Below, in pieces: positions 39,001 to 57,703 of a stretch of 64,000 nt of DNA. Origin of the DNA: a virus. The notes beneath the pieces were generated by a model. It was not told the origin of the DNA, did not search any database, and saw only the letters and a program-made list of their open reading frames with translations. The position numbers and the translations under genes are program-made. How positions within the stretch are numbered: position 1 is the first letter of the stretch; each line of letters opens with the position of its first letter. Where the stretch lies: the IMG/VR virus record IMGVR_UViG_3300007512_002337, positions 1 to 64,000 of that record. One strand, given 5' to 3'.

Positions 39001-41773
39001 GACAGGGATCCATCTTCAAGGCGTCTAATATCGCACTTATGATTGAGCACAACATTCTTTTCAGCATCTCGATTAACATTTCTGTCAACAATAGCCTGAG
39101 GAAATTCATAAAATCAATTGTTGGAAGTTTTGGAATTGGAGGCAATCTGAAGTCAATGTCCAAACTTATGTTAACGTTTGGTAGCTTCATACATCTTACA
39201 TAATCACAAATTAAATCCAAAAGGCTAAACTTGCTGACAAACTGATCCCATAGGTCCTCAAACTCACACAAGTCTCCAAAACTTGGCATAATATCTGCAA
39301 TATTATAATCTGGTGTCATGCCAAAATTATTGCTATTCAAGTTTTTCTGAGACGTGTTCCACCATTCTTGAACTCCACTTCTTGCAGAATTCCACGAATC
39401 TTCAAGAAAGCTAGCCGATGCTTCCTCATCGCCAGTTCCGATTTCTTGTAACTTTGGAGAAGTAAACTTAAAAACTATCTCTCGACCGGAGGGCGCTAAA
39501 AGACCACAGCCCGAGCCGCCCAACAATGGGATCCCTCCGCCTCCTTTGGCCAGCTCACCGACTTGAGCAAAGTAATTCATTGTCCTGGGGCGGTTGAGCG
39601 GACTAATATTAAACTTTTTTGTAAGAGGTGGATTAAGTGGTGTCAATATTGTGCTCTTACCCGATGTCGTAGCGCGGATGCTCTTAATCTTTAGGCCAAG
39701 CTCTTGCTGATAAGCGTCACCCATACCTTGCTCAGCTTCTGCTTGATTCTTAAAAACTGGTTCAAATTTAATCTGCAAATCGATTCTAGCCAACTTTGAA
39801 TCAATGCCATGTTGTGGTTTATTGTTCGGAGGATCATTCACTCCTAAGGGATCATAGGAGAATCCTTCTTTTTCTACTAGTTTTTGATAGTCTTTCGATG
39901 ATTTAAGCAAGTTATCAAGCGCAGGCAGGACCTGCTTTAAAAGTGTTGCCTCTTGTGAGACATTGATACTCGGATTCGTCAAGACGCCAGACATATCTTT
40001 TGCTGATTTTTTCAACATGGCAGCTGCGTCATTTACAATATTTTTTAATCTATTTTGAGGTATTGTAAGGGTTCTAGAGCTTGGGTCGTAATTCACACCA
40101 GTAGTTGTGTATCTCCGGGGAAAGCCGTTGTCCCCGGGCTGACCTGTGAGGTTATCAGTAGAAAAATCGTAAGACCCCAGTGGGCCTAAATTCAAATTAG
40201 TTGACGCCTTTTCGCGGCCGCCGTAAGAAAGAGCAGAATCTTGCCTTCTTTGGCGATACTGTGCAGTGGCTGCCTGTTCTCTCATGCGGCGAGCGATTTC
40301 CTTTTTTCTTTTCGCAGCATATGAACGATGCTCAGCAATCCGGGCGATGGCTTCCTCGGTATCAATTGCACATGTCGCTGCGGACTCTTGGAATTTCTGA
40401 GTCTCTTCTCTCACTTTTAGCGCGGCAGACTTGAATGTTGTATCTCCCTCTGGTGATATAACCAAACCCATCTCTATGGTATCTAACTTTGGCTTGTATA
40501 TTTCAAAATAAGCACGATATACATCGCCCGGGCGGCTTGTTGGTGTCCTAAAATCTACAAACTCTATTAATGGTTTTGCTGCGGTGTTTTCAATTGTTCT
40601 ATAGTTCTGATAGCTATCTGGCTTAACGAGAGTTGCATTAATCTCCCCATACCCCAAGCACCAATTAGTTAGCTCTGTGTGCTTTCCAGAGTGGCGTGGG
40701 CGATTAGAAGTAAAATGTAGGTCCCACACATCTTTAAAAAAATTATTTTCTGGATTTGCAAACCAAATGTGTGGTTTTGAAAAGTGATCTAGCACCTCTT
40801 TTAAGGCCCTTTCTTCTAGCCTTCTTATGGCTGCAGCTTCGTCTTCTGGTGTGGCAAAAATCGGAGGATTGTCAAAATCATATTGCGTTTTATAGAAAAA
40901 TCCATGCAAGTCTTTTGTCAAAACAAACGGATCTGGATCTATGAATGGGTCCGGTTCTGTTGCTGATATAACAAGATTTCTTCTCTCCTCTTCAGACAAT
41001 GAATCATCATTAGGCATCACGGGCGGTGAACGCTCGAGAGTTATAGCTACCGCCTCTGAAAGGGGACTCTTGTATCCCTCTGGATGAGGCTCTATCATCT
41101 TATAATTAAATGATGCCGGACCCGTGTCTAGGCGATCATTCAAGGGGTTTTGACTTGTCAGTCTTCCGGAAGCATAAATAAGAGCTGCTTCACCGGCTTG
41201 CCTTGCCCCTGTGGACCGATCCGGAAGATCTGAAAACTCCGCTTCAGGGTCTCTGGGTTCAATGTCTAGTTCAGGTTTTGCTAGGTTAAAAGCTTCATTT
41301 GTAAACTGATCGTGACGAGAGCGCCAACCATGAAGAACGTGCAAGGTGGCATCACCCAAAAGCCCAAGCTCAGAATCAAAAATAATGTCTTCTGCTAAAA
41401 TTTGCGAATCATCAGGCCAAGTAATTACCAGATCTTTTATCAAAAATCTAACAATCTCCTCGCGGTGTTGAAGTTGAAAGTTCATCAAATATATTTCAAA
41501 CTTTTTATCGAACTGGGTTCCAGTCTCTAAATCAATTGGAGTTGATGATTCACAATCAAACCAAACCCCCTCTTCTACTGTTTCGTTTTCTGGTGTGCCA
41601 GTTTGCAATATTGGATTTGGGCTGACCATCCCTGTGGCGATCTTAGCTGCTAATATATCTTTCCCCTGTTCGCCGGGTGTGCGTGGGCCAAAAGAAATTG
41701 CACCCTCTGAAGGTGTTCCGTCTGCCGCTTCATATGATCTGGTTATTCTAAAACTTTTCTTTACTATCGCCAT
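30083..41773 (-). CDS. giant virion protein, 3896 aa, unknown role next to the baseplate wedge
   Basis: The second giant protein, almost exactly as long as the first but unrelated in sequence as far as I can see. The start (MAIVKKSFRITRSYEAADGT) and the region to residue 160 look like a folded N-terminal domain. Around residues 850-940 there is a segment rich in 'LPxIPKLPTIDF' followed by a hydrophobic helix (FLRLLLTEMLIEMLKRML). The C-terminal 150 residues contain several Cys residues (KCGPSCDDP, ATEGCPE) and an Ala-rich end. The bulk is rich in Asp, Asn, Pro, Tyr and Arg and lacks long heptad runs, so a tape-measure role is unlikely. Position between the hub-like protein and gp25 suggests a baseplate or tail-tip scaffold. 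Start at 41773 with AGTAGG upstream. Confidence 0.8.
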   Translation of the reverse strand: MAIVKKSFRITRSYEAADGTPSEGAISFGPRTPGEQGKDILAAKIATGMVSPNPILQTGTPENETVEEGVWFDCESSTPIDLETGTQFDKKFEIYLMNFQLQHREEIVRFLIKDLVITWPDDSQILAEDIIFDSELGLLGDATLHVLHGWRSRHDQFTNEAFNLAKPELDIEPRDPEAEFSDLPDRSTGARQAGEAALIYASGRLTSQNPLNDRLDTGPASFNYKMIEPHPEGYKSPLSEAVAITLERSPPVMPNDDSLSEEERRNLVISATEPDPFIDPDPFVLTKDLHGFFYKTQYDFDNPPIFATPEDEAAAIRRLEERALKEVLDHFSKPHIWFANPENNFFKDVWDLHFTSNRPRHSGKHTELTNWCLGYGEINATLVKPDSYQNYRTIENTAAKPLIEFVDFRTPTSRPGDVYRAYFEIYKPKLDTIEMGLVISPEGDTTFKSAALKVREETQKFQESAATCAIDTEEAIARIAEHRSYAAKRKKEIARRMREQAATAQYRQRRQDSALSYGGREKASTNLNLGPLGSYDFSTDNLTGQPGDNGFPRRYTTTGVNYDPSSRTLTIPQNRLKNIVNDAAAMLKKSAKDMSGVLTNPSINVSQEATLLKQVLPALDNLLKSSKDYQKLVEKEGFSYDPLGVNDPPNNKPQHGIDSKLARIDLQIKFEPVFKNQAEAEQGMGDAYQQELGLKIKSIRATTSGKSTILTPLNPPLTKKFNISPLNRPRTMNYFAQVGELAKGGGGIPLLGGSGCGLLAPSGREIVFKFTSPKLQEIGTGDEEASASFLEDSWNSARSGVQEWWNTSQKNLNSNNFGMTPDYNIADIMPSFGDLCEFEDLWDQFVSKFSLLDLICDYVRCMKLPNVNISLDIDFRLPPIPKLPTIDFMNFLRLLLTEMLIEMLKRMLCSIISAILDALKMDPCPGELEEDLFGNLDFDSLVQGAGENPIEGLNDLPTNARIGVKALSEALADTGLPPDRLEDAKSIIDDIFKILTPREICKLLKGESSKRVLTAIKNLIESLHDPFFAEHFSVEENIIYFFESVGVFISPDLCEELEKVDTVLGEITCSEMNDAISTLRRNLENRGKLAEDEIQKLLDIAQDNLDKRAAALGALMSGDSLASVVPDLFNPGSDDALLSALPDSFKNTLETASKAIFETAKMAYINDLAKFTPALYNNKQYLPQPGDPDYNAHGRMELEKTTEILRIFEQQLGGLSLDDERRHTVPKHVHGTASGGWDGFRYNNYISSGDGSIAINLEKFEINYALHEAENINNLPVINLFTMRESLYVDFVVDYYDPKDGKVYIEDNEQSPRIPFYRRQEILKPVDPENPNGGKIKVLSLVRANKFEKNTSQLWLKNFAADLSRAVREPLYGPQMNPGSVYHYGPKNPKSIINNYRDLAYYCYKFYRKATDGGKKHKDENESRRGHSDDEALWKGEHPVDPESNDHAHMSILRLSLIEDIGKRLEALSGKISDVMQQGTLRVTNNTELLPEIKPYFDKITETIKNRRTQDVEENLRDGIFGEPQLTPELEEIPVGIEAVDASLDDQGRPLVSLVFEPSTYIRTFDGRERYKRFALDNPPSIEFIENPWSLSSDTYSYTVNINDPYLIKKKIEFEECLIVPDELKVFVPNNDSKFIRRDSYAKLFLKDYQTVLDRYKIRIDRNMNQKLLADDSKIKNELIKESIYRSTLESMFEFVLFRLSNSNLFDESYVNLLEKRITGTKYYDPRTDCIQNPTGLSEGNILKFGDLISDMITEVQNEYAKPENYPQNMDFSQPGPVEKAFQNVIVRAIIKIFHIEFMLRGALTNSTYSPSYYKDNRLLDKYFEEFVLSQLANKRAFGGATSNAEETMNEFYKVLIRVSGVSQTSYSESNRKLALRSLIQKEKEKIPNLSNHLYQTSTTKDYVETFVKQLPILDVKSYIQYTEPHHGGVNDALNIKMYQRGNSDADIFFIQDIPQDMTINGGFYLEHYLRLNQKPGAAESLTNFRVETGEILREKIFQNLRDFAETQSFASPPDSPDDLEINVDEMRANIELHANDDEFRETEVISGRELQTLLSDYVEAKLFSDEAETELERELREEFTSTLNVLRRDECGIVDFDFNYSESSEDIRRRRNDLVDHPRVVRRLPSRLIKRNRTHFKISDFLWGKTEPDRESFVRASDGNLNEKYIKDLFKGSVNFDSRASEETRYYAIPMDACYHYERTRFWELNHDDPEVTGEMLDFYNLNMTNIDSDVNPEELRGENYHYTNFGGPQYKIEEIDAPRDAYKKLQSEPGQPLVADGPAPVMFGPLDSGDSDDLPSSGVKRGVVHHPHVTSVGVIYDTLDTPYHPFDPAAPWFSETKQASDQIEPAYSNHFGLLEKEEFQYVVDMFKENTTCTNTDTQEVEFEDWDEIVIDLYGESSVPYHIPGESFHLTDELPILTWREVEYHDFLLPYWNTTNSNTRSPNYTKVNYLSTVPQTIGEMSIPDTEKFINRLSAFDISNLGVGNVEYENTGQQLNQYGAYASPFRFSGNTGGWKQGIPEIIATEHMPVLGNLTATGLDVDTDGNYTTNKMKPILGSSRTIRRNSNVISAPDSWAKYEEDPHINGGHYNREIWRPLYWDAIRVSRPFGHTPMSYESKIVDKVTRIWRVSSDEATQNYPNTNLDPVYKIEFNERVYGPNTYYIPIRLLLTQVVRRGGPGHQLAHYRDHSSRGDTFARVLIPELLKPHDFPNPSLDPPPVNDFRKDLLQEAMNNIYKEYLDILITVRNDSRHNLHHQANLGFSPPNQILEEGDANFGDNETSDQARWNHNSQTRAYISNLPTFAKSAYNNDFNAGLTQAAATSKSINFPAFFSVSKLYSRACELEAEKQIGTFTSDSSKIDEQFLNNPGLLLKDWVDFNTLNMPIRDFTPKTPIRLALDGVSKDQDSLSIGGRVYHNCGFGFRFPFFSKIESEDIDTYDKDLLAYNRQFKSGMPKNLDQLIDDSIKPTFGDDMVATIDTIVRKWFGAKRYDSFWGKTSSRSWLFGNQLSLEGITDSIYRRPGQPDLSQEESIRRANARAGRPPTWDDLYRTYSYARDISDVELVRSIHKNWQCPHEWPNGPKCGLSPFVADGRWTITELQYMKELWGQSPTSSIIDAFSITADRLDGELFEWEVLNRSEIQDMSAEELLARHPNKALLSLIHVGPHGQVRQRLNAHWNQGRGWGNQPYEVEVRRGTTTRKETRYTLEERGELGYFTRNMMLGDDIGSINWMIDTILMDSEQNNPWVSDMIWYLKSSRTSQYELSSTRGVVATAGTGGPMTVLGVRGYLNFLVAAELKSLGVMIGEEWVGGSTNIGTAASDSDWAMAERAQTILEGESSYIRQVGEQINPRSAFNKNQKYLNLYAKYRRYFGLSLDQHVRYTHTRHNLINRLVTRKPKVLLYSIEVFARQHEFVEAINNIFWTFLENDSTMLEEMEETRRAVIEEVLNRMRMLFNNTEIKFGVRLVQVVKSTLTDKIMRAYRDADPKLVSLIPKEERSYFLKPRSPEDDRSSGEYSMLTNSPNDFVFCNPLISFEEEFPADCVNYHNVYRRYVNEEGRKYLRSKLFDTPEFRALTEFIYPLDKFATMTNIFSTQILSSRASTQEILDTTKVTLMEIFKTMINRNDFGRKGPFDHLGAAALSNSELFNQFNKYATSEGPDMKCIEFPDMGQFLEALIDQIKNIIYYTPSIILRGIASAIDPMYMDMKQKHNTCEPGSEHVKNLKWSGTTMYTEKKHKSLGEGTTGCDSNKYAPVFPGFAIDMMTSIASLLSFDGRPLGRTLDKFATYLYDADLPFFKFDFEFDIPCLMDEPYEKEYEAPTLGSHGRYGHFLSPITVLALSTPELPTEKNTKCGPSCDDPPIISTKEERDATEGCPELESPDDSAAISAQAAADAIGLGED

Positions 41774-45653: not shown

Positions 45654-45877
45654 TAATCACTACCCACTGTTTTGTTATTCTCTGCCTCAACGTCATAATT
45701 CACCAATGGTGTGGCATGATCGAGTTTAAACTGTGGCGGGTTTGTAACTTCCAATTCCTCGTTTTCAGTGATATTAAAGTTAAATCCCTTCAACACTGGT
45801 ACTATATCTGATTGCTCTAATAGAGACTTTTGCAGGGCCATCATCAAGGCCCCCATTGCTTGATTTGATAATTTCAT
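45653..45877 (-). CDS. small hypothetical protein, 74 aa
   Basis: A 74-residue protein with an N-terminal helix ([18 protein letters not shown]) and an acidic C-terminus. It is similar in type to small proteins next to sigma and structural genes in marine phages as I recall, but no function is known to me. It starts in an ATGA overlap with the end of gmd and shares one base with the next ATG, so it connects the glycan operon to the sigma-factor group without a gap. Confidence 0.65.
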
Positions 45878-46872
45878 TTTACACTCCTTTTGTTCTTTGA
45901 CAATAAATCAAAATCACTCCTATACATCAATTCTGCTAAATCTTTAAATTTGTGTTTCGGCTCCCAGCCAAGCACTTGTTTTGCCTTTGACGGGTCGCCG
46001 AGCAATATTGGAACTTCTTGGGGACGGAAAAGTCTCTGATCAATTTCCACATACTGCTCTGCAGGTCCAAGGCCCGCTATATCAAAAACACAATCCAGAA
46101 ACTCTCTTACCGTATGTGTCTCGCCGGTTGCGATAACGTAATCGCTAGCAACAGGATGCTGCAACATGAGCCACATCGCCTCTACATAGTCACCTGCAAA
46201 TCCCCAATCTCTTTTTGCTTCTAGATTTCCTAGATGAATCTTTTTTTGCAGCCCTAATTTTATATTAGCTGCCGCCAAAGTTATTTTTCTAGTTACAAAA
46301 GTTTCCCCGCGTCGGGGCGACTCGTGATTAAACAATATGCCAGAAGAGGCATGCAGCCCATAGCTTTCTCTATAGTTGTTAACTAAATTGTGAGCAAACA
46401 ACTTAGCACAGGCATATGGCGAAGCAGGGTTGAATTTTGTTTTTTCATCTTGTGGAAACGTTTTACAGTCTCCATACATCTCTGATGAAGACGCCTGATA
46501 AAATCTACATTTAGGCGAGAGTTCTTTTATTGCGTTTAAAATCCTTAAGGTGCCCATCGCAATACCATCGACGGTATGTTCCGGAATGTCAAAAGAAACC
46601 CTAACATGAGATTGTGCTGCTAAATTATAAAATTCATCTGGCTTATATTTGTGTATTATCTTCCATATGCTTCCTGCATCATTTAGATCATAATATTCCA
46701 TATAAAACCTTGGATGGCCATATATGTGGTCAACCCTATCAGAATTGATGAGAGAGGATCTTCTTTTTAGGCCTATAACCTTATATTTCTTTTTTAACAA
46801 GAGTTCAGCCAAATAGCTTCCATCCTGTCCGGTCACACCAGTTATGATGGCGAGTTTCCTGTTTTCGTTCAT
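45874..46872 (-). CDS. gmd: GDP-mannose 4,6-dehydratase family enzyme
   Basis: A 332-residue extended SDR enzyme that removes water from GDP-mannose to give GDP-4-keto-6-deoxymannose. It has the NADP-binding [11 protein letters not shown] near the start, SSSEMYG with the Ser/Glu pair, the YxxxK pair in YACAK, and the Gmd signature [16 protein letters not shown]. The length is slightly below the bacterial average (about 345-370). It is followed upstream by an fcl-like gene (ATGA overlap), the classical order for GDP-fucose. However, the island also encodes heptose enzymes, and close Gmd relatives (DmhA type) act on GDP-heptose, so the substrate is not certain. No manC or phosphomannomutase is in the window, so GDP-mannose would come from the host. 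Confidence 0.92.
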
Positions 46873-47813
46873 AGTCCTCTTACCATGGGATAAATAGACT
46901 CAAACCACTCAATGGTCGAATCCAAACCCTGCTCCAAAGAAGTATAATTTTCCTCTCTCCACCCCAAAGATATGAGTTTAGAATTATCAGAGGGTTTTCT
47001 TTTCTGACCATCGGGTTTTTCGGTATCCCAAATAATATTTCCTTTAAAGTTTAATTTTTTGGCGATAATTTCAGCTAAGCTCTTAATGCTGTATTCTTTT
47101 GTGTTTCCAACGTTGATTGGCTCTGGGTCCGAATAATGATCCACCAAAAACAACACAATATCCACCAAGTCTTGAGCGTAAGTAAACTCTCTCACTGGAG
47201 ATCCGCTGCCCCACAAAACCACATCTCTCTTGTCCTCGCGAGCCATATATATCTTTCTTATCATGGCAGGAATTACATGAGAGTTTTCTAAATCAAAATT
47301 ATCGTGTTTACCATATAGATTGTTTGGAACAGCTGTGATAAAGTTACACCCATACTGTTTTCGATATGCTCTGGATTGAATGTCCAGCATTCTTTTAGCA
47401 TAGGCATAAGCAAAATTAGATTCATGAGGTGGGCCGGAATGAATCTGGTCTTCCGTTAAAGGATAGGAAGCTTCTGCTGGATATACACACGTACTCAAAA
47501 GAGAGACCACCTTCGCGACATGAAATTGCTTTGCTGCTTCGAGAACGTTTGTGTTTATTTGAATGTTTTTTAAATAAAATTCTCCCATATTTTCCATGTT
47601 TGCAATCAGGCCACCGACCTTTGCAGCCAAATGAATCACAATATCAGGGCGATGAAAGGCAAACAAAGAGATTGTTTGATCATAATCCGATAGATCACAC
47701 TCTTTAGATTCAACAAAAATAAACTCCATATGTCTACTGCTCTTATAAAAAGCAGACCCAACCATGCCGGAGGCGCCTGTAATTAAAATATTTGGCCTTT
47801 TAATAATTTTCAT
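46869..47813 (-). CDS. fcl: GDP-L-fucose synthase family (epimerase/reductase)
   Basis: A 314-residue SDR enzyme of the Fcl/WcaG type, which epimerises and reduces the 4-keto-6-deoxy sugar made by Gmd. Visible are [11 protein letters not shown] (cofactor binding), HLAAKVGG with IANMENM, the STCVYP strand, the YAYAKR catalytic pair, and [20 protein letters not shown], a strong family signature. It overlaps gmd by four bases and the upstream epimerase by 14 bases. With a GDP-heptose substrate the same type of enzyme acts in Campylobacter-like capsule heptose modification (established for that system); which applies here is open. Confidence 0.92.
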
Positions 47814-48714
47814 TTCCTTTTAAAACTTCTGAAATCCAGTCTAGGACATCTATCGACGGTGACCATCCGAGAAAGTCTCTTATTTTTGTAATATCTGCCA
47901 ACGTTTCTTCTGCTTCGCCCGGGCGCGGTGGAATAAACTCATATTTATTGCTAATATGTTTTGCGATATCCAGTATTGATATATTTTCGCCGCTACCAAC
48001 ATTAAAGACTTCTCCCACTACCCCGGGGGATGGAGAACATGCAGCAAGCAAGTTTGCCTCCACAACATCTCGGACGTGGGTAAAATCTCTTCTTTGTTCC
48101 CCGGTACCAACAATTGTCATGCTTTTGCCAGAAAAATGTTGCTTTAAAAACAGCCCCACAACAGGAGCGTAATGCCCCTTAAGAGGGCTCCTTTCTCCGT
48201 ATACATTAAAGTATCTTAAAATCACCGTCTCCAATCCAAATAGATTAGTATACATTTCACACATCTGCTCACCGGCACACTTGGTTACAGAATAAGGATT
48301 CAAGCAATCATTTGGCATGGTCTCCTTAAGTGGCGGCTTATTTTTAAGGCCATAGCCAGAACTAGTGCCGGAATAAATCACCCTCTTAACATTGTTGGCT
48401 CGTGAAGCTTGCAAAACATTGGTGGTGCCGACGACGTTCACTCTAGCTGCTAGAGCAGGGTTCAGTATGGCTGGCTGTATTCTTGATTCTGCAGCTAAGT
48501 GAAACACGCAGTCGGCACTGTGGAACAGCGGCTCTATTGATTCGTAATCACAGATGTCTAGCTTGTGATTCTCGGCCTTCTCATTAAAATAGAACTCTTC
48601 ATTGCACTCTGCAGAGAGATTGTCTATTACTGTTACATTGTTCCCTTCTTTTATAAGTTTGTCAACTAAATGACTTCCTATAAATCCATTCCCCCCTGTA
48701 ACTATACATTTCAT
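47800..48714 (-). CDS. NAD-dependent sugar epimerase/dehydratase (GalE/WbpP-like)
   Basis: A 304-residue extended SDR enzyme. TGGNGFIGSHLVDKL binds the cofactor; HLAAESR, the GTSSGYG strand and YSVTK provide the Ser-Tyr-Lys catalytic set. RYFNVYGERSPLKGHYAPV is typical of UDP-hexose 4-epimerases and related dehydratases. The likely reaction is 4-epimerisation of a UDP-sugar, but sequence alone does not fix the substrate. It overlaps the HAD-nucleotidyltransferase gene by four bases (ATGA). It is one of four SDR enzymes in the island, so several different sugars are probably made or altered. Confidence 0.85.
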   Translation of the reverse strand: MKCIVTGGNGFIGSHLVDKLIKEGNNVTVIDNLSAECNEEFYFNEKAENHKLDICDYESIEPLFHSADCVFHLAAESRIQPAILNPALAARVNVVGTTNVLQASRANNVKRVIYSGTSSGYGLKNKPPLKETMPNDCLNPYSVTKCAGEQMCEMYTNLFGLETVILRYFNVYGERSPLKGHYAPVVGLFLKQHFSGKSMTIVGTGEQRRDFTHVRDVVEANLLAACSPSPGVVGEVFNVGSGENISILDIAKHISNKYEFIPPRPGEAEETLADITKIRDFLGWSPSIDVLDWISEVLKGNENY

Positions 48715-49427
48715 TTTAAACTATCCTTTATCATATTTTTAAATTTTGTAGTAGACCAGCCGTGCGAACGATCAACATAACAAATAGGTATATCTAAACC
48801 CCTTCCTGTGTATTTTTCCTTCTCTCTATAATCATCTCCTAACATTCTAACACATATTTTGTTATTCTTTAAATAATCCAGTAATTCTGCTTCGGTCTCA
48901 TAAACATGAATCTCATCAACATATTTTATTGATTCAAGAATTTCTATTCTTTCCTCAAGAGACAAAATTGGTTTAATCTTATTTGGATTTTCTTGAGATG
49001 GGTCCTTGTGGAGCCCAACCACCAAATGCTTGCCCACCTCTTTGGCTCTTTTGAACACCTGTATATAACCGGGGTGAATCACATCAAAACTGCCAGCGAC
49101 AAAGGCACTTTCTCTTTTGTTTCTTATCAAGGATCTGTAATCATTTATGTTTATTGCTTTGTCATCAACAAAAATATCTGCATGGGGCTTCTTGTTCATT
49201 ATTAGTTCGTGATATTGAATTCCCCACTCTTTGAGTTGATTTGTGGTCTCCGCCGCCCAATCCTTACCAGAAACCGAGCCCCTAGCTGTCATTATTATGA
49301 TCGTATGACCCTCTAAATATAAGTTGTTAATGCTCAAGGCAACATCTACAAACAATTCTGCTTCAAGATAATTACCGTCCTCCCTCAAAGAACAAATGGT
49401 CCCATCTATGTCAAAACAGTATATCAT
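48711..49427 (-). CDS. fused HAD phosphatase and sugar-1-phosphate nucleotidyltransferase
   Basis: A 238-residue two-domain enzyme. Residues 1-100 are a HAD phosphatase: D6-I-D8-G-T, Thr47 in MTARG, a Lys in NKKPHAD (79-84), and D88-D89. Residues 107-238 are a cytidylyltransferase-fold domain: AGSFDVIHPGY, where the usual HxGH is HPGY (118-121), and a C-terminal RSHGWSTTK motif. In heptose synthesis the matching steps are 7-phosphate removal (GmhB type) and nucleotide transfer to heptose-1-phosphate (HldE C-terminal type). Its place next to the GmhA-like and kinase genes supports that role. The order fits consecutive reactions in one chain. An alternative is activation of another polyol or sugar phosphate. 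The nucleotide used cannot be read from the sequence. Confidence 0.8.
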   Translation of the reverse strand: MIYCFDIDGTICSLREDGNYLEAELFVDVALSINNLYLEGHTIIIMTARGSVSGKDWAAETTNQLKEWGIQYHELIMNKKPHADIFVDDKAININDYRSLIRNKRESAFVAGSFDVIHPGYIQVFKRAKEVGKHLVVGLHKDPSQENPNKIKPILSLEERIEILESIKYVDEIHVYETEAELLDYLKNNKICVRMLGDDYREKEKYTGRGLDIPICYVDRSHGWSTTKFKNMIKDSLK

Positions 49428-49928
49428 TCACACCGCCGTATGTAAAATTGCTTGATGGGTGCACTCAACAATACCATAATCGTCTGAATCTACCCAAAAT
49501 TCTAACTCGGAATCTTCTGCTCTAAATTCTCTTAGCCTGTTTCTTGGATCAAACCCTGTCAATATAATAAAAGAAATTTCTGTATCTCTACAAAATGTTG
49601 CTGCTTTAAAGATATTTTCACTTTCCCCAGATGAAGAGATTAAAATTACTAATGTTTTTTCTGTTTTAAAATCTTTTAAGAATTGGCTATATGCATGTTC
49701 CATGCCGTAATCGTTTATATAACAGGTAAGTCTTGATGGGTCAGAAAACGAAATGGCCCTTTTTCCCAATTGTTTCGTGTAGTCTTGCGAAATGTGGGAC
49801 GCAATACTGTTGCTTCCGCCATTTCCAAGAATTATAATATCTTCATAGTCTAGTATTATTTTCTTTAACGCCAATATCTTGTGTTTGTCTATTTTTTCCA
49901 AAGACTCTATAAAATTTGAAATATTCAT
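49428..49928 (-). CDS. gmhA: GmhA-like phosphoheptose isomerase (SIS domain)
   Basis: A 166-residue SIS-domain protein, shorter than E. coli GmhA (192). GmhA converts sedoheptulose 7-phosphate to D-glycero-manno-heptose 7-phosphate, the first step to NDP-heptose. Visible are LGNGGSNSIASH, SDPSRLTCYINDYG, the ISSSGESENI phosphate loop, and a C-terminal VECTHQAILH. By my alignment the metal-site residues H61, E65, Q172 and H180 of E. coli correspond to H45, D49, E155 and H163, so two are replaced by acidic residues. The subfamily is therefore distinct, and another ketose-phosphate substrate cannot be excluded. It abuts the phosphatase-nucleotidyltransferase and overlaps the kinase by four bases. 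Confidence 0.82.
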   Translation of the reverse strand: MNISNFIESLEKIDKHKILALKKIILDYEDIIILGNGGSNSIASHISQDYTKQLGKRAISFSDPSRLTCYINDYGMEHAYSQFLKDFKTEKTLVILISSSGESENIFKAATFCRDTEISFIILTGFDPRNRLREFRAEDSELEFWVDSDDYGIVECTHQAILHTAV

Positions 49929-50893
49929 ACAGTGTGACCCTCGACACCGGTGTCTACTATTTGTATCGGAATAACATTCGAATAAATGCTTGTTAAGAAA
50001 TTTTCATTTTGTTTGTCCCTGTCCATAAAAACCAAAAAATACCCGCCGTTGCCGGCTCCACATAAACGATGAGCCAAAATTCTATCTTCATTTTGCAACG
50101 AATCTTCTATATTTTTGAGAAACAAGTTTTCAGTAATAACTCTAGAAATCTTCTTTTTTACTTCCCAGCCCTCATTTATCGTTTTACAAAACGAAACCAT
50201 GTCTTTGGATTTAATATTTTCTTCCATCTCATCAACCAAACTTAATAAGAGGCGCCTGTTGTCTTGGGGACCCTCATCAAAAGTCTTCAGAACATCAGTG
50301 GATCTTCTGGTTACGCCGGTGTGAATAAGGAACATGTCCATTGACTCAAAAATTTCTTTAGGCAAAAAACTGATCGACGGATCAGTGTCTTTTTTAAATA
50401 TCATTTTCTTTAAAGCACCTAACCCACAGCCGTACGGGTCCTGGTGTCCCGTAAGTGGATTAAAACTTCTCTCTAGCTGAAGTGAAAGTTTACACATCTC
50501 ATGTGCTGATAAGTTCATCTCCTTTATCATTGAGATTGCCTTAATGAAAGCGATTGTGTAAGAAGAGGACGAAGCCAATCCCGAACCTCTAGAGAAAACA
50601 TCTCCTGTAAAGGTGCAAGTAACCGGTGGCGCTGCAAAATGTTGTAGCACTTCTCGGGCGACATCATTTTGTATTTCGCAGACTTTCCCCACCTCTTCTC
50701 TTGTCGTATAATTGATGATATATTTATTGGAACTCCTGTTAAACCCGAAAACATCATTATGAACAGCAATATAGGTGTAAAGATTGCACGGAAAACTTAC
50801 AACTGCCCCGTAATCGTTTTGCTCCAAAAAGCCTTCCAGGTCAGTGGAGCCCCCTGCTAAAGAAATTCTCAATGGACACTTTGCTATAATCAT
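49925..50893 (-). CDS. hddA: D-glycero-D-manno-heptose 7-phosphate kinase (HddA-like GHMP kinase)
   Basis: A 322-residue GHMP-family kinase expected to phosphorylate heptose 7-phosphate at C1. The N-terminal CPLRISLAGGSTDL is typical of HddA-like kinases. The ATP loop is GSGLASSSS near residue 106, and the C-terminal GHMP motif is LCGAGNGGYFL. HddA homologues occur with GmhA in GDP-heptose operons of capsule and S-layer systems. Here it lies directly before the GmhA-like gene (four-base overlap). The canonical HddC guanylyltransferase is missing; the fused enzyme downstream may take its place. L-fucose kinase is a related family, but the GmhA neighbour favours heptose. Confidence 0.85.
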   Translation of the reverse strand: MIIAKCPLRISLAGGSTDLEGFLEQNDYGAVVSFPCNLYTYIAVHNDVFGFNRSSNKYIINYTTREEVGKVCEIQNDVAREVLQHFAAPPVTCTFTGDVFSRGSGLASSSSYTIAFIKAISMIKEMNLSAHEMCKLSLQLERSFNPLTGHQDPYGCGLGALKKMIFKKDTDPSISFLPKEIFESMDMFLIHTGVTRRSTDVLKTFDEGPQDNRRLLLSLVDEMEENIKSKDMVSFCKTINEGWEVKKKISRVITENLFLKNIEDSLQNEDRILAHRLCGAGNGGYFLVFMDRDKQNENFLTSIYSNVIPIQIVDTGVEGHTV

Positions 50894-50896
50894 ATC

Positions 50897-51892
50897 CTAT
50901 CCTACGAATACTTCTCTAAATTGATTCATGACGTTTTCCGGCGAGTAAGTGTCTTTATAAATGTCCCACTCTTTCTTAATGATATCACTTCTATCTAAAT
51001 TTATTAAGATATTATGTAAGTCTTTGGGCCCCTTATAGTATATTCCTGCAGGTCCAAGAAGATCGATGTGGCCCGTATCATAATGCGCTGGTGGCTCATC
51101 CGGGTTCCACGTTACTACTGGTTTATTTTGAGTTGAAGCCTCGGCAACTGTTAATGGGAATATTTCGCCATCATACCTAGCGTGCATAAAAAAGTCTCCA
51201 GTATTAACAAATTTTAATATCTTACTCAGATCAGAAGTCCAATCAAGAAAAAGTACCCTAGAATGATCAATAAATTTCTTGGTATTTAAGAAGATAAACC
51301 AAAGATCTGATCTCTCCTTTAAAGACTTTTCAATTTCTTCGTGTACAAAACCCAAACTAAATGTATCATTTCCTCCGTGTCGAAACCCAACAAGTGCATC
51401 TTTTGGAATCCCAAGTTCCTCCCTATAGTTGTCTGATGGGTTTAGTTTTTCATAGTCGACTATGTGGTCAACCCACGGATGAAAGAGTCCGTGCTTTTTA
51501 CTAATATATTTACAAACTCCCGCATATACACTTCCGTGAGGCTCGTCCATCCTAAATATACAATGTGCGGCTGATGGACAGTCCAAATTTGTTAAAATCC
51601 CATCGTCCTCTCCGCCTTTTATGGCATATAGAAAATCAACATTTTCTTTGGAAATTAAATTATTAAAATACCTTACAATTTCAATATTCTTGCCATCTGG
51701 TTGCCATACATCTGGATACAAGTGAACATCAAACTCTCTTTCGAATCTAGACAGAGTTGGAGTAGGTCTTGAAGATGTTGATACGATTATGGGATCCCAA
51801 CCTAAAATCTCTCTAGCATATTTGGCATATTTATAAAGACAAATTTCAGTACCTCTAGAACCCAGTTGGTATGAGTGTAAAACTATCTTCAT
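50897..51892 (-). CDS. glycosyltransferase, GT-B fold (GT4-like)
   Basis: A 331-residue protein with a GT-B layout. The N-terminal domain opens with a strand and a Gly-rich turn (MKIVLHSYQLGSRGTEICLY). The C-terminal domain contains the donor-binding region (LGIPKDALVGFRHGGNDTF) and 'HARYDGEIFPLTVAEA', the usual 'GE.FpL...EA' motif of GT4-type enzymes. The start at 50893's upstream neighbour is not overlapped; the kinase begins three bases after this gene's stop. It would transfer a sugar to a growing glycan. Donor and acceptor are unknown. Confidence 0.78.
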   Translation of the reverse strand: MKIVLHSYQLGSRGTEICLYKYAKYAREILGWDPIIVSTSSRPTPTLSRFEREFDVHLYPDVWQPDGKNIEIVRYFNNLISKENVDFLYAIKGGEDDGILTNLDCPSAAHCIFRMDEPHGSVYAGVCKYISKKHGLFHPWVDHIVDYEKLNPSDNYREELGIPKDALVGFRHGGNDTFSLGFVHEEIEKSLKERSDLWFIFLNTKKFIDHSRVLFLDWTSDLSKILKFVNTGDFFMHARYDGEIFPLTVAEASTQNKPVVTWNPDEPPAHYDTGHIDLLGPAGIYYKGPKDLHNILINLDRSDIIKKEWDIYKDTYSPENVMNQFREVFVG

Positions 51893-52863: not shown

Positions 52864-53591
52864 CTGTAGTTCTCCTGAATTTTTTTATTTTCGAGCCATG
52901 CTGAGCCGGGTGGACCAGAATTTGGCCTGTCGTAATCTACACCCAAGATAGAAGATGACCAAGGTAGCCAAGTTTTTTCTATGTCTTTTCGTGCGGCGCC
53001 TAAGGTCTTATCCCATTCACTATAAGTATCTTCTTTAACTTTTTTTAAAATCATATCAGACCCTATAGACCATTTCTTATTAAAGTGGGGTTCCGAGAGG
53101 GCACATTTATCGTTTTGTTGTAATGGTGACTTCCAAGAATAGTCATAAGTTCCTTCTTGACTTTCATATAAGGCCAAGTCTGCTTGTTTTATTCTAAATA
53201 CCCAATCCCTATCTTCCCAGCCACCATTAAAAAATCTTTCATCCCACCAGCCAATTTTCCTTATTAACTGCTTTGAAAAACCCATAAAACCAACGTTATA
53301 CATAAAAGAGCAGGCATATCCGTTTTCTAAATGCTCTATTATTTTCTCGACTTCTGTTACACTAGGAGAGCACCGATCATTTATTAAAATTACAAACTCT
53401 GTTGGCGAAGTTGCTATCGAATGATTTATAAGTCGAGAATAACTAGGGTAGGCAAATGGATATCTGTCTATACGATTATTCCAGGCAATATTATACTTTT
53501 GCTCTAAAGGTTCTAAGGCCTCCATCTGAGCAAAAACGATACTGCGATCGCAGCCACAATGCAGGCATATTGTTATATCTTTTAGTTTCAA
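52860..53591 (-). CDS. glycosyltransferase, GT-A fold (GT2-like)
   Basis: A GT-A type enzyme of about 243 residues. It has an N-terminal strand (DITICLHCGCDRSIVFAQ), a 'VILINDRCSP' segment where the metal-binding DxD is expected, and GGWEDRDWVFRI, the acidic 'ED' motif typical of GT2/GT27-like enzymes. I place the start at TTG 53591. It forms a TTGA overlap with the upstream methyltransferase stop and has GGAG six bases before it (53598-53601). An in-frame TTG at 53603 has no such site. Cys-rich beginning and Trp-rich end are unusual but not decisive. Substrate unknown. Confidence 0.78.
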   Translation of the reverse strand: MKLKDITICLHCGCDRSIVFAQMEALEPLEQKYNIAWNNRIDRYPFAYPSYSRLINHSIATSPTEFVILINDRCSPSVTEVEKIIEHLENGYACSFMYNVGFMGFSKQLIRKIGWWDERFFNGGWEDRDWVFRIKQADLALYESQEGTYDYSWKSPLQQNDKCALSEPHFNKKWSIGSDMILKKVKEDTYSEWDKTLGAARKDIEKTWLPWSSSILGVDYDRPNSGPPGSAWLENKKIQENYR

Positions 53592-54286
53592 GCTTTTCTC
53601 CAAAAAATACTAGAACCATCAATATAGCACATCTCCCCTTGTATGTCAAACTTATTTCGATAATCTACTACAGCTTTTTGGGCTCCGGGCAACAGCCAGT
53701 CATCAACTATCAGGTATCCCCCAGCAGAAAGACGAGGATATAAGTTTTCCAAAGCGACCCAAGTAGATTCATACATATCTCCGTCCAACCTGATTAAAGA
53801 GAAGGTTTCTTCGTGCAAAGTTGGCATAGTGTCCTGAAACCAGCCCTTCAAAAAGATAATATCTTGTGATAACAAGTCGTATGATTTGAAATTGGATATT
53901 ACTTCCTCTAAAGAAACATTTAGATCCTGATATGTCCAGTGCATGTCTCCGAGATCTGCTGGATACTTTTCAGCGTTGGGCTTTGGCAAACCGCAAAAAG
54001 AATCCGCCACATATACTTTTCTTTTTTCGCCTTGTGCTTTTACTAAACCTGCCATGAAAATTGTTGCGCCGCCGCGCCAGACGCCTGTCTCTATGAGGGC
54101 GCCTGGGATTGAGTCTTTTATTATATTTTCATAACAAAACTGTATATTGTTTAATCTTTTTAAGCCAATCATGGTATGTGCCAAAACGGGGTGAACCGTT
54201 CCGTTTATCAGGCCGTCAGTTAAAGGCTCATAAATAACATTTAAAACGCTTTTTTTTAGCAAGTCTAAATAAAGTTTGTTTTCCAT
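53588..54286 (-). CDS. TylF/MycF-type O-methyltransferase
   Basis: An SAM-dependent methyltransferase of about 232 residues in the TylF (macrocin O-methyltransferase) family, which methylates sugar hydroxyls. Motifs are GALIETGVWRGGATIFMAG (SAM site), VADSFCGLPKP, and LIRLDGDMYEST with LIVDDW (metal and SAM contacts, Asp-rich). The start is ATG 54286 with GGAG eight bases upstream; a longer reading to 54367 only runs through the upstream gene's end and lacks support. The neighbours are glycosyltransferases, so it probably methylates a sugar of the same glycan, possibly as a chain cap. Confidence 0.88.
   Translation of the reverse strand: MENKLYLDLLKKSVLNVIYEPLTDGLINGTVHPVLAHTMIGLKRLNNIQFCYENIIKDSIPGALIETGVWRGGATIFMAGLVKAQGEKRKVYVADSFCGLPKPNAEKYPADLGDMHWTYQDLNVSLEEVISNFKSYDLLSQDIIFLKGWFQDTMPTLHEETFSLIRLDGDMYESTWVALENLYPRLSAGGYLIVDDWLLPGAQKAVVDYRNKFDIQGEMCYIDGSSIFWRKA
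53598..53601 (-). promoter_or_regulatory. ribosome binding site for the TTG start at 53591
   Basis: GGAG on the minus strand, six bases before TTG, inside the last codons of the methyltransferase gene. It favours the TTG at 53591 over the TTG at 53603 and keeps the four-base overlap seen throughout the operon. Confidence 0.65.
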
Positions 54287-55269
54287 TTTTTGTTCTCCTT
54301 CTTTTTTTGTTTGTGTTCTTTTAAGCAATCTACTATTTTTCGCGCTCTCGCGATGGTCGTTCCACACTCTTTTAGCCAGCTTCTTTGAGCCTCTAGCATG
54401 TTAATATATTCTGATGTTGGTAGCCCATTGTTAAAGTTTACCAATCTAGTCACCAAAGATGTCAGCTCCTGTTTGCTAGAGTAGGAATAGCATGGCAAAT
54501 CTTGTGGAGAACACCATGCGGGTTTATCATCATAGTCCCTAAATAGTAAAAGAGCCCCAGAAGCAAGAATTTCATAGTGTCTAAGTGCATCCCAGCCGCC
54601 CCTCTTACATGTTAAACCAAACCAAGACTTTTGAAGGTCTTGCATGTATTCTTCTTCATCTTCAAATTTGTAATTTTTTCTGTTCCCAAGATCCTCTTGA
54701 GTGCGGAACAGGGCGACATCCGGAGCGGTTTTCTGAAACCACTGCTCTTTCAGTTGCAAGTCGAATTTCCTAATTCTAGATGAAGGAATGCATAAGCCTG
54801 TTGGGTACACATCTTGCTGGTTTGTTAACAGTTCTCTTTTAAAACATGGCTTCTTTTGTATTCCTATAACTTTTCCAAGTTCTGAAGGGTGTTCTATCAT
54901 TTTTGGAGCATAACCGTAAAGATCGTGACTGTCTAAATACCATATATCTTGTTTTGCAACCAAACTATTTATATACTCCAATTCACCATAATCATACTGG
55001 CCGACATTACCATATAAAACAACGTCAATGTTCTTCATGTCATGTCTTTCGACTGTAGATATGTCCTTGATTGACTCAGTCAACAAAGAAAAACCCATAC
55101 CGTGAAGATCTTCTTTTTTTGTTTCTGACCAATCATGATACATTATTTTCTTCCTTGGGTAGTCTATACAATCCTTTCCCAAGAGACTTCTAAGGCCATG
55201 CAAAATGCCAACTTCAAGTAGGTCTCCCTGTTTTTTAGCAGACATGGTAGTTACGAATAATATTCTCAT
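54265..55269 (-). CDS. putative glycosyltransferase (GT-B-like), 334 aa
   Basis: A protein of about 334 residues starting MRILFVTTMSAKKQGD. I place the start at ATG 55269, which forms an ATGA overlap with the upstream stop; a longer reading to 55308 is not supported. The C-terminal half has 'WFGLTCKRGGWDALRHYEI' and 'LASGALLLFRDYDD', the pattern seen in exostosin-like and GT1-like enzymes at the nucleotide-sugar site. The N-terminal half is less clear. The 3' end is Lys-rich and overlaps the methyltransferase start by 22 bases. Family assignment is moderate. Confidence 0.7.
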   Translation of the reverse strand: MRILFVTTMSAKKQGDLLEVGILHGLRSLLGKDCIDYPRKKIMYHDWSETKKEDLHGMGFSLLTESIKDISTVERHDMKNIDVVLYGNVGQYDYGELEYINSLVAKQDIWYLDSHDLYGYAPKMIEHPSELGKVIGIQKKPCFKRELLTNQQDVYPTGLCIPSSRIRKFDLQLKEQWFQKTAPDVALFRTQEDLGNRKNYKFEDEEEYMQDLQKSWFGLTCKRGGWDALRHYEILASGALLLFRDYDDKPAWCSPQDLPCYSYSSKQELTSLVTRLVNFNNGLPTSEYINMLEAQRSWLKECGTTIARARKIVDCLKEHKQKKKENKKWKTNFI

Positions 55270-56030
55270 TTTACTATAGAGCCCTTGCAATATTCTTGAT
55301 AATTCCAAGGCTGACGGCCTGCCCAGTGCCTAATAATTGTATCCTCCTTATTTGACTTAACAATGTTGTACTGTTGTAACCACCTGCTTACCGGGTCTGC
55401 CTGCTCTTCTGAAAGGAGAGTGGTATTCCATTCCGGGCCTCGAATTTCTACATTTTCGTACAATTCGTCTATCTCATAATATGTTTCCTTTTCATCATAA
55501 GCGCTATACCAACCGTAATTTGGCATTTCTAAAAATGAATTCCAACTATGGGGCATGATTCCGCAAAGAAAATACCACATAGCCTGTTCCCGAAAATCTG
55601 TGCCGTGAGGTGTGCTTTTTAACCTTTCCCACCTCTCGTCGTCCACGATTTGATTTATCATATTTCTAGACCAGTCATTAACTCGTAAAGAAATCCAGCC
55701 CCAGCAATGAGTATTTCCATTATCTATGGCCAAAGAGAAGCTTTTCCCTTCAGATGGAAAGATTGAGTGACGGCCGTCAACAATACACATATCTGCATCT
55801 ATATTACAGACACAGTCTCCATCTTGCAATTCTCCTTCATCAAGCATTCTTTTAATTTCATAGACTTTATGCCAAGTGTAATTCCCTCTATATTTTATAC
55901 CATTTTTTATAACCTTATATTCAAAGCCATGGTGATCACAGTACTCTTGATTTCTAGGAGACAAGTGCTTTTCAAATATTTCCTGTCTCTCATCTTTATA
56001 GTCCGCTATGGCGAACATTAATTTCTTCAT
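55266..56030 (-). CDS. glycosyltransferase, GT-A fold with DxD (GT34-like)
   Basis: A 254-residue protein. 'CNIDADMCIVD' near residue 75 is a clear DxD metal site preceded by a hydrophobic strand, and the N-terminal 'ADYKDERQEIFEKHL' with 'YCDHHGFEYKVI' follows the pattern of GT34-like galactosyl/xylosyltransferases. A C-terminal 'IIRHWAGRQPWNYQEY' contains a His that usually contacts the donor phosphates. The start at 56030 overlaps the GT47-like gene by 35 bases. A second ATG at codon 5 is possible. Donor and linkage are unknown. Confidence 0.75.
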   Translation of the reverse strand: MKKLMFAIADYKDERQEIFEKHLSPRNQEYCDHHGFEYKVIKNGIKYRGNYTWHKVYEIKRMLDEGELQDGDCVCNIDADMCIVDGRHSIFPSEGKSFSLAIDNGNTHCWGWISLRVNDWSRNMINQIVDDERWERLKSTPHGTDFREQAMWYFLCGIMPHSWNSFLEMPNYGWYSAYDEKETYYEIDELYENVEIRGPEWNTTLLSEEQADPVSRWLQQYNIVKSNKEDTIIRHWAGRQPWNYQEYCKGSIVK

Positions 56031-56898
56031 TTTCTACCTTCTTTAAGATCTTTTTTGTTGTCGAGTCTATTGTAAAATATTTATCGTAAGATTCTCTTAT
56101 ATACTGTAGCTTATCTTCGTACTCTCCCGAATACAAACAGTCTTGCAGAGTTAAATCTAGTATATCTAAATCTTCTGGTTTGCATTTTATAATCGCCTTA
56201 TCCCAGTCAAAATCTCCGATCCATGGTAACCAAAAATCATCACTGATATAAACAGGTACCGACCCCAACTGCATTATTTCATAAAGCCTATAACTCGTTT
56301 TTCCATACCCTCTAGGCGCTAAACCAAAATAACTACTCTTTGTATAATTCACAAAATTTTCAAATTGGTCTTCTGATACTTTTTCTGACCAACTTCTTTG
56401 AGAAAAATAAAAATCACTATTATTAAAAAATTGCTGATACATCTTTACTCTTAAGGGGTGGGTGTTTGCTGAACCTATAAAGGATGCTAAAATCTTCTTT
56501 TCTGCTGAGGTCCTGTATTCTTTCGGTATTTCCGAAACTATCAGAGGTATTGGCGTACCTGCAGCGTTTCCTCCCGCCGAATAGCAAACCGTATTTCTTG
56601 GTAAAGATTCCCTAGGTGCATCATCATGAGTCGAGACTGTAAAATAGGGCAGTTCTTGATCTAGAGAATCTAATGTTTTTTGTAGTGTTATCAGAGGCTG
56701 GTCTCGATTGTTAATATAACAACCACTCCAATGTATAGGAATAAAATACCTACCCTTCTCTAACGGACTATTTTTATAGTAATTTATAAAATATTGTTCG
56801 AGATATGGACCCACATGATATGGAGGATATGTTGGCCATTGTGGGTTGGGGCAAAACTCTTCAAATAATTCAAATAACTTCTTTTGATAAGGTCTCAT
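55996..56898 (-). CDS. exostosin-like glycosyltransferase (GT47-like)
   Basis: A protein of about 300 residues when started at ATG 56898 (MRPYQKKLFELFEEF). The stretch upstream of that ATG encodes the end of the neighbouring gene in another frame and has no family features. The exostosin signature is clear: SSYFGLAPRGYGKTSYRLYE followed by IMQLGSVPVYISDDFWLPW. The N-terminal half has a Pro/Tyr-rich segment and 'FIPIHWSGCYINNRD'. It overlaps the downstream gene by 35 and the upstream by 29 bases. GT47-type enzymes are common in eukaryotes and found in some phage and bacterial glycan clusters. Confidence 0.8.
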   Translation of the reverse strand: MRPYQKKLFELFEEFCPNPQWPTYPPYHVGPYLEQYFINYYKNSPLEKGRYFIPIHWSGCYINNRDQPLITLQKTLDSLDQELPYFTVSTHDDAPRESLPRNTVCYSAGGNAAGTPIPLIVSEIPKEYRTSAEKKILASFIGSANTHPLRVKMYQQFFNNSDFYFSQRSWSEKVSEDQFENFVNYTKSSYFGLAPRGYGKTSYRLYEIMQLGSVPVYISDDFWLPWIGDFDWDKAIIKCKPEDLDILDLTLQDCLYSGEYEDKLQYIRESYDKYFTIDSTTKKILKKVENEEINVRHSGL

Positions 56899-57703
56899 AA
56901 TATTCCAATATCTCTTTGTATTCTGGCAGGTCAGACTCTGATAATAAACCAAAAACCCTTTCCACAAGAAAAGAGCCCGGATTATATCCGTTGGGTGCCT
57001 TGAAGACATGAAAATGAAAATTTGTTGCGGGCAGTTGACCAAACATTATTTTTTCATTTTCTAATTTTAATTGATTAATTCTATTGCTCGTTCTAGCATT
57101 ATTAAACCTCCACCATCCAATGTTGTTATTAATTGGAAGATTTAACGATTTAAAATTACTAAGTATCAGCTCAAAAGGCTTCTGTTCATAGTAAAGCCCA
57201 AGTTTGTCGCAATTTTCAGTCAAATATTTCCATTGTTTAAGATTTTCAGGATCATGCAAGCCAAACATTCCGACATTATAAAACCCATGCTTATCTTCGT
57301 TCATAGGGTCACGAGAATAATGAGGCGAAACTATAAAATCAATTTCCTTATCATTAAGTAGATTCACAGACTTCAAATCTATTGAGCCCACGAATAACAT
57401 ATCACTGTCCAGAAAAATGGCATGCCGCTCTTTCTCCAGGCATCGCTCTAGAGTTTTAAATTTATTTAAAATAATATTCAAAAATTGTGCGCGGCGGGAT
57501 GGTATCGAGGAATTATGATCAGAAATTTCGTCATTAACTTTAAAAACAAAAATCTCTACATTTGCAAAATTTGATAAGGTTTCAGCCGAAACTTGATCAC
57601 AAGAAATATACCATTTACACTCATTGAACTTCTCACAAGAAAACTTTGTTAAAAGAAATTCATTTAGACAATTCTTGGTTACAACTGAGCATAAATTTAT
57701 CAT
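56870..57703 (-). CDS. putative GT-A glycosyltransferase with DSD motif
   Basis: A 277-residue protein. 'HAIFLDSDMLFVGSID' gives a DxD motif on the expected strand, and an N-terminal Cys/Lys-rich part precedes it. Later 'HGFYNVGMFGLHDP' and 'NNIGWWRFNNAR' fit the acceptor half of GT-A enzymes such as GT8/GT32-like types. It starts one base after the stop of the GT4-GT2 fusion, without a clear ribosome site, so reinitiation is likely. Substrate unknown. Confidence 0.7.
   Translation of the reverse strand: MINLCSVVTKNCLNEFLLTKFSCEKFNECKWYISCDQVSAETLSNFANVEIFVFKVNDEISDHNSSIPSRRAQFLNIILNKFKTLERCLEKERHAIFLDSDMLFVGSIDLKSVNLLNDKEIDFIVSPHYSRDPMNEDKHGFYNVGMFGLHDPENLKQWKYLTENCDKLGLYYEQKPFELILSNFKSLNLPINNNIGWWRFNNARTSNRINQLKLENEKIMFGQLPATNFHFHVFKAPNGYNPGSFLVERVFGLLSESDLPEYKEILEYYETLSKEVI

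Follow-up and report, generated by a model that had tools for sequence, protein, structure and literature searches.

A four-gene viral cassette with a phosphatase-nucleotidyltransferase fusion that probably makes nucleotide-activated heptose

Among the systems closest to the locus described here, the heptose pathway of Campylobacter jejuni runs through a GmhA-class isomerase and an HddA-family kinase (PMC10680097), and HldA, HldC and HldE as well as the HENases are linked to ADP-, CDP- or UDP-beta-heptose. Virus-encoded enzymes that make nucleoside diphosphate (NDP)-heptose were reported in 2024, and the architectures listed for heptose nucleotidyltransferases are monodomain, kinase/transferase and isomerase/kinase/transferase, with no phosphatase among them (PMC11573728, a commentary on a Science 2024 paper). 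In cyanophage SynMITS9220M01, a kinase, an isomerase and an epimerase had been named as heptose-related lipopolysaccharide genes in 2020 (PMC7378029). Here we describe a cassette on the first 64,000 nucleotides (the window) of the 68,106-base IMG/VR virus record IMGVR_UViG_3300007512_002337 that comprises an HddA-like kinase, a GmhA-class isomerase, a fusion of a haloacid dehalogenase (HAD) phosphatase with a nucleotidyltransferase and a short-chain dehydrogenase/reductase (SDR), and that probably makes nucleotide-activated heptose in the infected cell. Phage heptose genes as such are already known; what the literature searched does not contain is the joining of phosphatase and nucleotidyltransferase, the mixed route or the distribution of that route. 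We found no fusion of this kind in the open-access literature, where no search named the fusion itself.

Kinase, isomerase and fusion are transcribed in this order from the minus strand (48711-50893; Table 1), with an ATGA overlap joining the first two, the fusion starting on the base right after the isomerase stop and a 4-base overlap leading from the fusion into the SDR gene. The original prediction of three adjacent and coupled genes for a GmhA-like, an HddA-like and a fused phosphatase-nucleotidyltransferase protein is confirmed in coordinates, coupling and families alike, and the SDR belongs to the cassette as its fourth gene. In the pathway that we infer, including every substrate, the choice of nucleotide and anomer and the role in a glycan, the isomerase would convert sedoheptulose 7-phosphate to heptose 7-phosphate, the kinase would phosphorylate C1, the HAD domain would remove the C7 phosphate and the nucleotidyltransferase domain would place the 1-phosphate onto a nucleotide (most likely that of CTP, with ATP next). 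The SDR would then epimerize the activated sugar, probably at C4, and nearby glycosyltransferases would bring the heptose into a surface or virion glycan, which may, as first suggested, decorate the virion or keep out rivals. The first four of these steps had been proposed before and remain the best reading in view of family resemblance, gene order and a GmhB gene found beside a degenerate fusion in one genome (G589, see below), although the proposal missed the fourth gene and the phosphatase is not of the GmhB type. Its addition that bacteria usually need four or more separate genes for these steps overstates the case, as enzymes that unite kinase and nucleotidyltransferase in two domains, and others with three domains, have been described (PMC11573728).

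Gene content and order of the cassette are conserved across viral loci, its domains are under purifying selection and its catalytic residues are retained apart from the altered sites discussed below. We fetched 97 viral loci, 83 of them with an in-frame fusion; they were found by fusion-built patterns and are hence biased to the fusion and non-random, with the second scan covering the best 80 of 316. These contigs include duplicates, such that 82 other fusion open reading frames (ORFs) amount to 71 distinct ones and five pairs among the 52 other loci with both flanks are identical around the fusion. The counts of conserved residues in the cassette proteins come from 80 of 140 HAD-family, 74 of 88 isomerase, 67 of 79 kinase and 83 of 94 SDR ORFs, after removal of duplicates and of ORFs outside set lengths and addition of the window copy; the HAD rows include three long proteins that continue into something other than this transferase (L059, L064 and L069) and that stand outside the 77 distinct fusions. 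Leaving aside the virus of the window, 61 viral loci extend 2.5 kb or more upstream of the fusion, and in 58 of them kinase and isomerase precede it (missing from L010, L017 and L018). Of the 73 that extend 3.5 kb or more downstream, 69 have an SDR near the fusion (missing from L017, L018, L083 and L126), within 2.5 kb downstream in 68 and upstream in one. All four genes are present in 48 of the 52 loci with both flanks, so that the trio, for which a search in other phages had been suggested, does recur there. The fusion-adjacent kinases show 36-49% and the isomerases 42-58% identity, and median dN/dS values are 0.11 for the HAD domain, 0.15 for the transferase, 0.13 for the isomerase, 0.12 for the kinase and 0.13 for the SDR (copies 72-96% alike, in pairs that are not independent). 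Given the repeated company of kinase and isomerase with the fusion and domain medians of 0.11-0.15, the trio is not a chance arrangement.

Heptose is the best-supported substrate, given the isomerase and kinase profiles and the GmhB replacement in G589. For the kinase, HddA is both the top NCBIfam model (NF049969, 74.1 bits and 24 bits over the next family) and the top PDB match (3k85, 4e-21), and Q151, D152 and the glycines of the GAGxGG motif are invariant in 67 distinct copies. It is a GHMP kinase, in contrast to HldA and HldE, whose kinases are of the PfkB kind. The isomerase as a single sequence matches GmhA entries of the PDB (best 2e-11), and a profile of 15 viral isomerase rows matches GmhA entries (best 1.6e-16), DiaA and, weakly, one regulator, with no match to an arabinose-5-phosphate isomerase at E <= 0.01. 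Its zinc positions are H45/D49/E155/H163 (H-D-E-H), and none of the 74 distinct copies deviates from them. We also surveyed SIS-domain genes within 200 bp of matches to the cassette-kinase profile, taking the best 30 per phylum from two phyla plus the loci in hand, and 17 of 28 carried H-D-E-H (five cassette copies with one gene counted twice, one from phage Cr30 and 11 others), while two had D with the end unaligned. This survey indicates that the H-D-E-H class shares its place next to such kinases with canonical GmhA-like genes; no published assay of any member of the class was found.

The fusion matches the solved phage HAD phosphatase 9iqw over residues 3-105 (8e-11; Foldseek identity 31%) and CTP_transf_like (PF01467) over residues 110-207. 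Its AlphaFold2 model has a mean pLDDT of 90.1 but a pTM of 0.64, which suggests well-modelled domains in an uncertain relative placement. Homology and the presence of the HAD catalytic residues place the first domain with AfhF-type phosphatases (D6, D8, T47, K80, D88 and D89 are each retained in 78-80 of 80 distinct rows), and there is no GmhB model among 15 families matched at E <= 0.01. A megablast search with 290 bases of the fusion returned no phage record. The architecture varies in a few viral loci: HAD and transferase are separate genes in L011 and L012, a 361-residue ORF joins HAD, nucleotidyltransferase and a mannose-6-phosphate-isomerase-type cupin (L003:8001-9083), and a 458-residue ORF of megaphage LR756511 combines an HddA-like kinase with an HPGY nucleotidyltransferase (L030:5983-7356). 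As a separate observation, phage genes labelled "phosphoheptose isomerase" in RB69 (NC_004928 27708-28094, gene 051) and P-SSM2 (NC_006883 239311-239655) match 9iqw, and phrog_1238 is matched by the HAD part of the window fusion and not by the window isomerase. Judging from these matches, such labels can belong to an HAD phosphatase, and the mislabelling may have influenced surveys in which "gmhA" serves as a marker for viruses.

For the nucleotidyltransferase domain, the closest fold is that of CTP:glycerol-3-phosphate cytidylyltransferase (TagD; 1coz, Z 17.0, rmsd 1.9 over 123 residues), ahead of the Fom1 cytidylyltransferase (Z 16.3) and HldC (5xf2, Z 14.2), in a VIA-align list occupied by this domain and barely probing the HAD domain. 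HddC, by contrast, is MobA-like. On this modelled fold, CTP would be the favoured nucleotide. The motifs of the domain are HPGY (118-121) and R220..S225-T226-T227, the latter recalling the R..STTK end motif of TagD, from which the domain differs by a tyrosine in place of the second HxGH histidine and by a score far under the family cut-off. With HldC it shares the transferase fold, yet the phosphatase/transferase architecture sets it apart from HldA/HldC/HldE and the HENases, as does the position of the arginine in STTR5, the hallmark motif of promiscuous HENases (PMC11573728), which is Y in 71, W in 4, R in 1 and a gap in 1 of 77 distinct fusions. Compared with the Campylobacter jejuni pathway, which it resembles in the order of the chemistry and the classes of isomerase and kinase, the cassette has a non-GmhB phosphatase, a transferase of cytidylyltransferase fold, a fusion of these two and the H-D-E-H zinc positions. 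Cyanophage SynMITS9220M01 carries the same four genes in identical order, but its heptose route was left with a gap because its fusion is annotated as hypothetical (QJT70212.1). The fusion would supply the phosphatase and nucleotidyltransferase steps missing from the cyanophage heptose genes.

Copies of the fusion also occur in cells. Among bacterial and archaeal genomes, HAD-part patterns picked out 45 loci, of which four match over the full length of the fusion (L031-L034) and the others over the HAD stretch only. Three of these come from Prochlorococcus single cells, on contigs with cellular-looking flanks (in L031 and L032 with genes read as clpP and ilvC), and the remaining one is an Acidimicrobiaceae metagenome-assembled genome (MAG) contig that may be phage. 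Across 400 Prochlorococcus-family genomes, five hold the full fusion (the three single-cell ones included) and three further ones the HAD part only; the two other genomes with the fusion have all four genes, in one case next to clpP and ilvC within a contig of 1.94 Mb. That the fusion is a phage-only invention is refuted by these chromosomal copies, which lean towards a surface glycan of host type. A tree gave no direction for phage-host transfer, with 68 of its 76 rows (four rows having been end-trimmed beforehand) falling in no group, unsettled bootstrap values and long branches.

One family genome bears directly on the phosphatase. In G589, the fused HAD domain is degenerate with conserved motif residues lost, and 2.8 kb from the fusion lies a protein above the TIGR00213 GmhB cut-off (157 vs. 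149.6) that scores too low to pass two further GmhB models, whereas G002, G003, G005 and G429, with an intact HAD domain, gave no TIGR00213 match at E <= 0.001. GmhB scores above the cut-off in 14 of 300 family genomes including G589, and any match is found in 55. Though a single case, the presence of GmhB beside the degenerate HAD domain speaks for heptose 1,7-bisphosphate as the compound on which the HAD domain acts. As for other contexts, stand-alone HAD relatives lie in bacterial clusters with neighbours read as NeuB-, NeuA- and GmhA-like (L038, L043, L044 and L050), a hint at another role of this phosphatase, and in the Acidimicrobiaceae contig a PfkB-type kinase (as read) and an HPGH nucleotidyltransferase lie upstream of the cassette (L033:4770-6207), so that this contig may hold two neighbouring heptose routes.

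Several points weigh against a heptose pathway. The NCBIfam equivalog cut-offs are reached by neither kinase (74.1 vs. 600 bits for NF049969) nor isomerase (58.6 vs. 209.45 bits for the GmhA equivalog TIGR00441) nor fusion (58 vs. 181.5 bits for the heptose nucleotidyltransferase model TIGR02199 and 65.8 vs. 165.4 bits for TIGR01518, glycerol-3-phosphate cytidylyltransferase). The second histidine of HxGH, the motif of HldC/HldE nucleotidyltransferases, is tyrosine (Y121) in 75 of 77 distinct fusions and histidine in two (L010 and L017). Two of the four GmhA zinc ligands are altered in all 74 distinct isomerases (E to D and Q to E), and the canonical E at the second position is kept in nine of the 28 kinase-adjacent SIS genes. 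In GmhA, the ligands H64/E68/Q175/H183 are completely conserved in orthologues and their mutation lowers activity (PMC5705639). HddA yields the alpha anomer (PMC10680097), whereas descriptions of HldC/HldE-type enzymes involve the beta anomer (PMC11573728), so pairing an alpha HddA kinase with an HldC/HldE-like transferase is without precedent in the open-access literature searched. The GmhB replacement is a single genome, and the completeness of the GmhB-less genomes is not stated. Finally, the PDB title of 9iqw, the closest solved HAD protein, is D-arabinose 1,5-diphosphate phosphatase AfhF of phage HY126.

This last point raises an activated pentose such as NDP-D-arabinose as the product, reached from ribulose 5-phosphate through arabinose 5-phosphate, the 1,5-bisphosphate and the 1-phosphate in parallel to phages with arabinosylated DNA. 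The chemistry is formally parallel, the HAD phosphatase is homologous to that of RB69 and HY126 (gene 051 in the proposed arabinose gene cluster of RB69 matches 9iqw with E 9e-87), and the RB69 isomerase gives a faint BLASTP match to the window isomerase (27% over 85 residues, E 0.016). However, the RB69 proteins 052, 053 and 055 are unmatched by the five cassette profiles at E <= 10, and the isomerase profile recovers GmhA and no arabinose-5-phosphate isomerase. The RB69 isomerase has been linked to KdsD/GutQ (PMC6024577), a type that the cassette does not show. With GmhB beside the degenerate HAD domain of G589 and the cassette sitting amid glycosyltransferases, we rank arabinose well below heptose and consider it improbable.

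The altered zinc positions and HPGY could also mean that one domain, either the isomerase or the nucleotidyltransferase, is dead and that the cassette stops at a sugar phosphate or leans on host enzymes. Yet the changes are near-invariant in distant copies and not random, both domains are under purifying selection, and the same SIS class occurs beside related bacterial kinases, which makes such a loss less likely still.

Returning to heptose, the cassette might represent a third route to the activated sugar, in which an alpha-specific HddA-type kinase and an HPGY phosphatase-nucleotidyltransferase would make CDP-heptose and phage and host would share a rare sugar by way of a Prochlorococcus-family surface-glycan locus, though we regard this more specific proposal as tentative. 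More generally, the cassette amounts to a mixed pathway open to direct testing and connects phages with picocyanobacteria. What heptose does in viruses, and what CDP- and UDP-heptose do, has been called unsolved (PMC11573728), and the cassette is a concrete system in which to test this.

The SDR scores 159 bits with galE, 158 with LegB and 112 with the heptose 6-epimerase model TIGR02197 (cut-off 274.6), none of which reaches its cut-off. We reject ADP-heptose 6-epimerase HldD as its identity, given this score, the higher one of galE and a best PDB match to UDP-glucose 4-epimerase; K179, presumably the HldD catalytic site, is K in just 26 of 83 distinct copies. The SDR of SynMITS9220M01 is labelled heptose 6-epimerase, a label that its window homologue does not fit. 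An SDR of ca. 55% identity is also present in P-SSM2 and other cyanophages without an isomerase match, so the enzyme is not bound to the heptose route alone.

The cassette is surrounded by a minus-strand glycan locus with glycosyltransferases, a methyltransferase, SDR enzymes and GDP-fucose-synthase-like and GDP-mannose 4,6-dehydratase (GMD) genes (Table 1), and gene junctions overlap or almost abut from the fusion through the SDR and the GDP-fucose-synthase-like gene to GMD. The least likely alternative is that the nucleotidyltransferase uses GTP and that the dehydratase and reductase coupled directly downstream turn GDP-heptose into GDP-6-deoxyheptose, for which Campylobacter offers a known GDP-heptose 4,6-dehydratase (PMC10680097), but the transferase fold is of the cytidylyltransferase/HldC and not the HddC kind, GMD exceeds its GDP-mannose cut-off, and a GMD of at least 38% identity lies within the fetched stretch in just seven of the 52 viral loci with both flanks.

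Table 1. Positions of cassette and neighbouring features in the window
Feature	Position	Strand	Evidence
HddA-type GHMP kinase	49925..50893	-	NF049969 E 1.3e-20, PF00288 3.7e-9, PDB 3k85 E 4e-21
SIS isomerase, GmhA class (proposed sedoheptulose 7-phosphate isomerase)	49428..49928	-	GmhA models 3e-17 / 7e-16
HAD phosphatase-nucleotidyltransferase fusion, 238 aa, single open frame	48711..49427	-	Pfam, PDB, AlphaFold2
HAD domain, residues 1-97 (proposed heptose 1,7-bisphosphate 7-phosphatase)	49137..49427	-	PDB 9iqw E 8e-11
Nucleotidyltransferase domain, residues 108-235	48723..49106	-	PF01467 6e-15
SDR, UDP-glucose 4-epimerase-like (proposed C4-epimerase on activated sugar)	47800..48714	-	PDB 4zrm 1.3e-49
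GDP-fucose-synthase-like SDR, coupled downstream	46869..47813	-	NF047922 6.6e-83, 278.7 bits (cut-off 500)
GMD, coupled downstream	45874..46872	-	TIGR01472 458 bits, above cut-off 415
Probable GT-B glycosyltransferase, directly upstream of kinase	50897..51892	-	low-confidence model, pLDDT 66.6
Glycosyltransferase domains	59750-61003, 57705-59807, 55996-57042	-	
TylF-type methyltransferase	53588-54367	-	
Baseplate-wedge gene	27775-29586		

The protein encoded directly upstream of the kinase has no Pfam or NCBIfam match, and its model resembles GT-B glycosyltransferases and UDP-GlcNAc 2-epimerases too weakly for a guess at its substrate. A Pfam scan of 32 window proteins, a subset of the ORFs on what is possibly a fragment, gave no family of flippases, polymerases or transporters. 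A second assembly of the same virus is a 126,975-base contig from another sample (L002), with identical genes over the 16.7 kb fetched. A cyanobacterial host could not be assigned through photosystem or transaldolase genes, as PF00124 and PF00923 are unmatched in both records, each possibly a fragment. Elsewhere in the window, two giant ORFs of 3,896 and 3,893 residues (30083-41773 and 14206-25887) have no Pfam match and gave no BLASTP match to each other at E 1e-4. The glycan locus itself is bordered by genes for a PhoH-like protein (63109-63981) and a PD-(D/E)XK nuclease (61000-61773).

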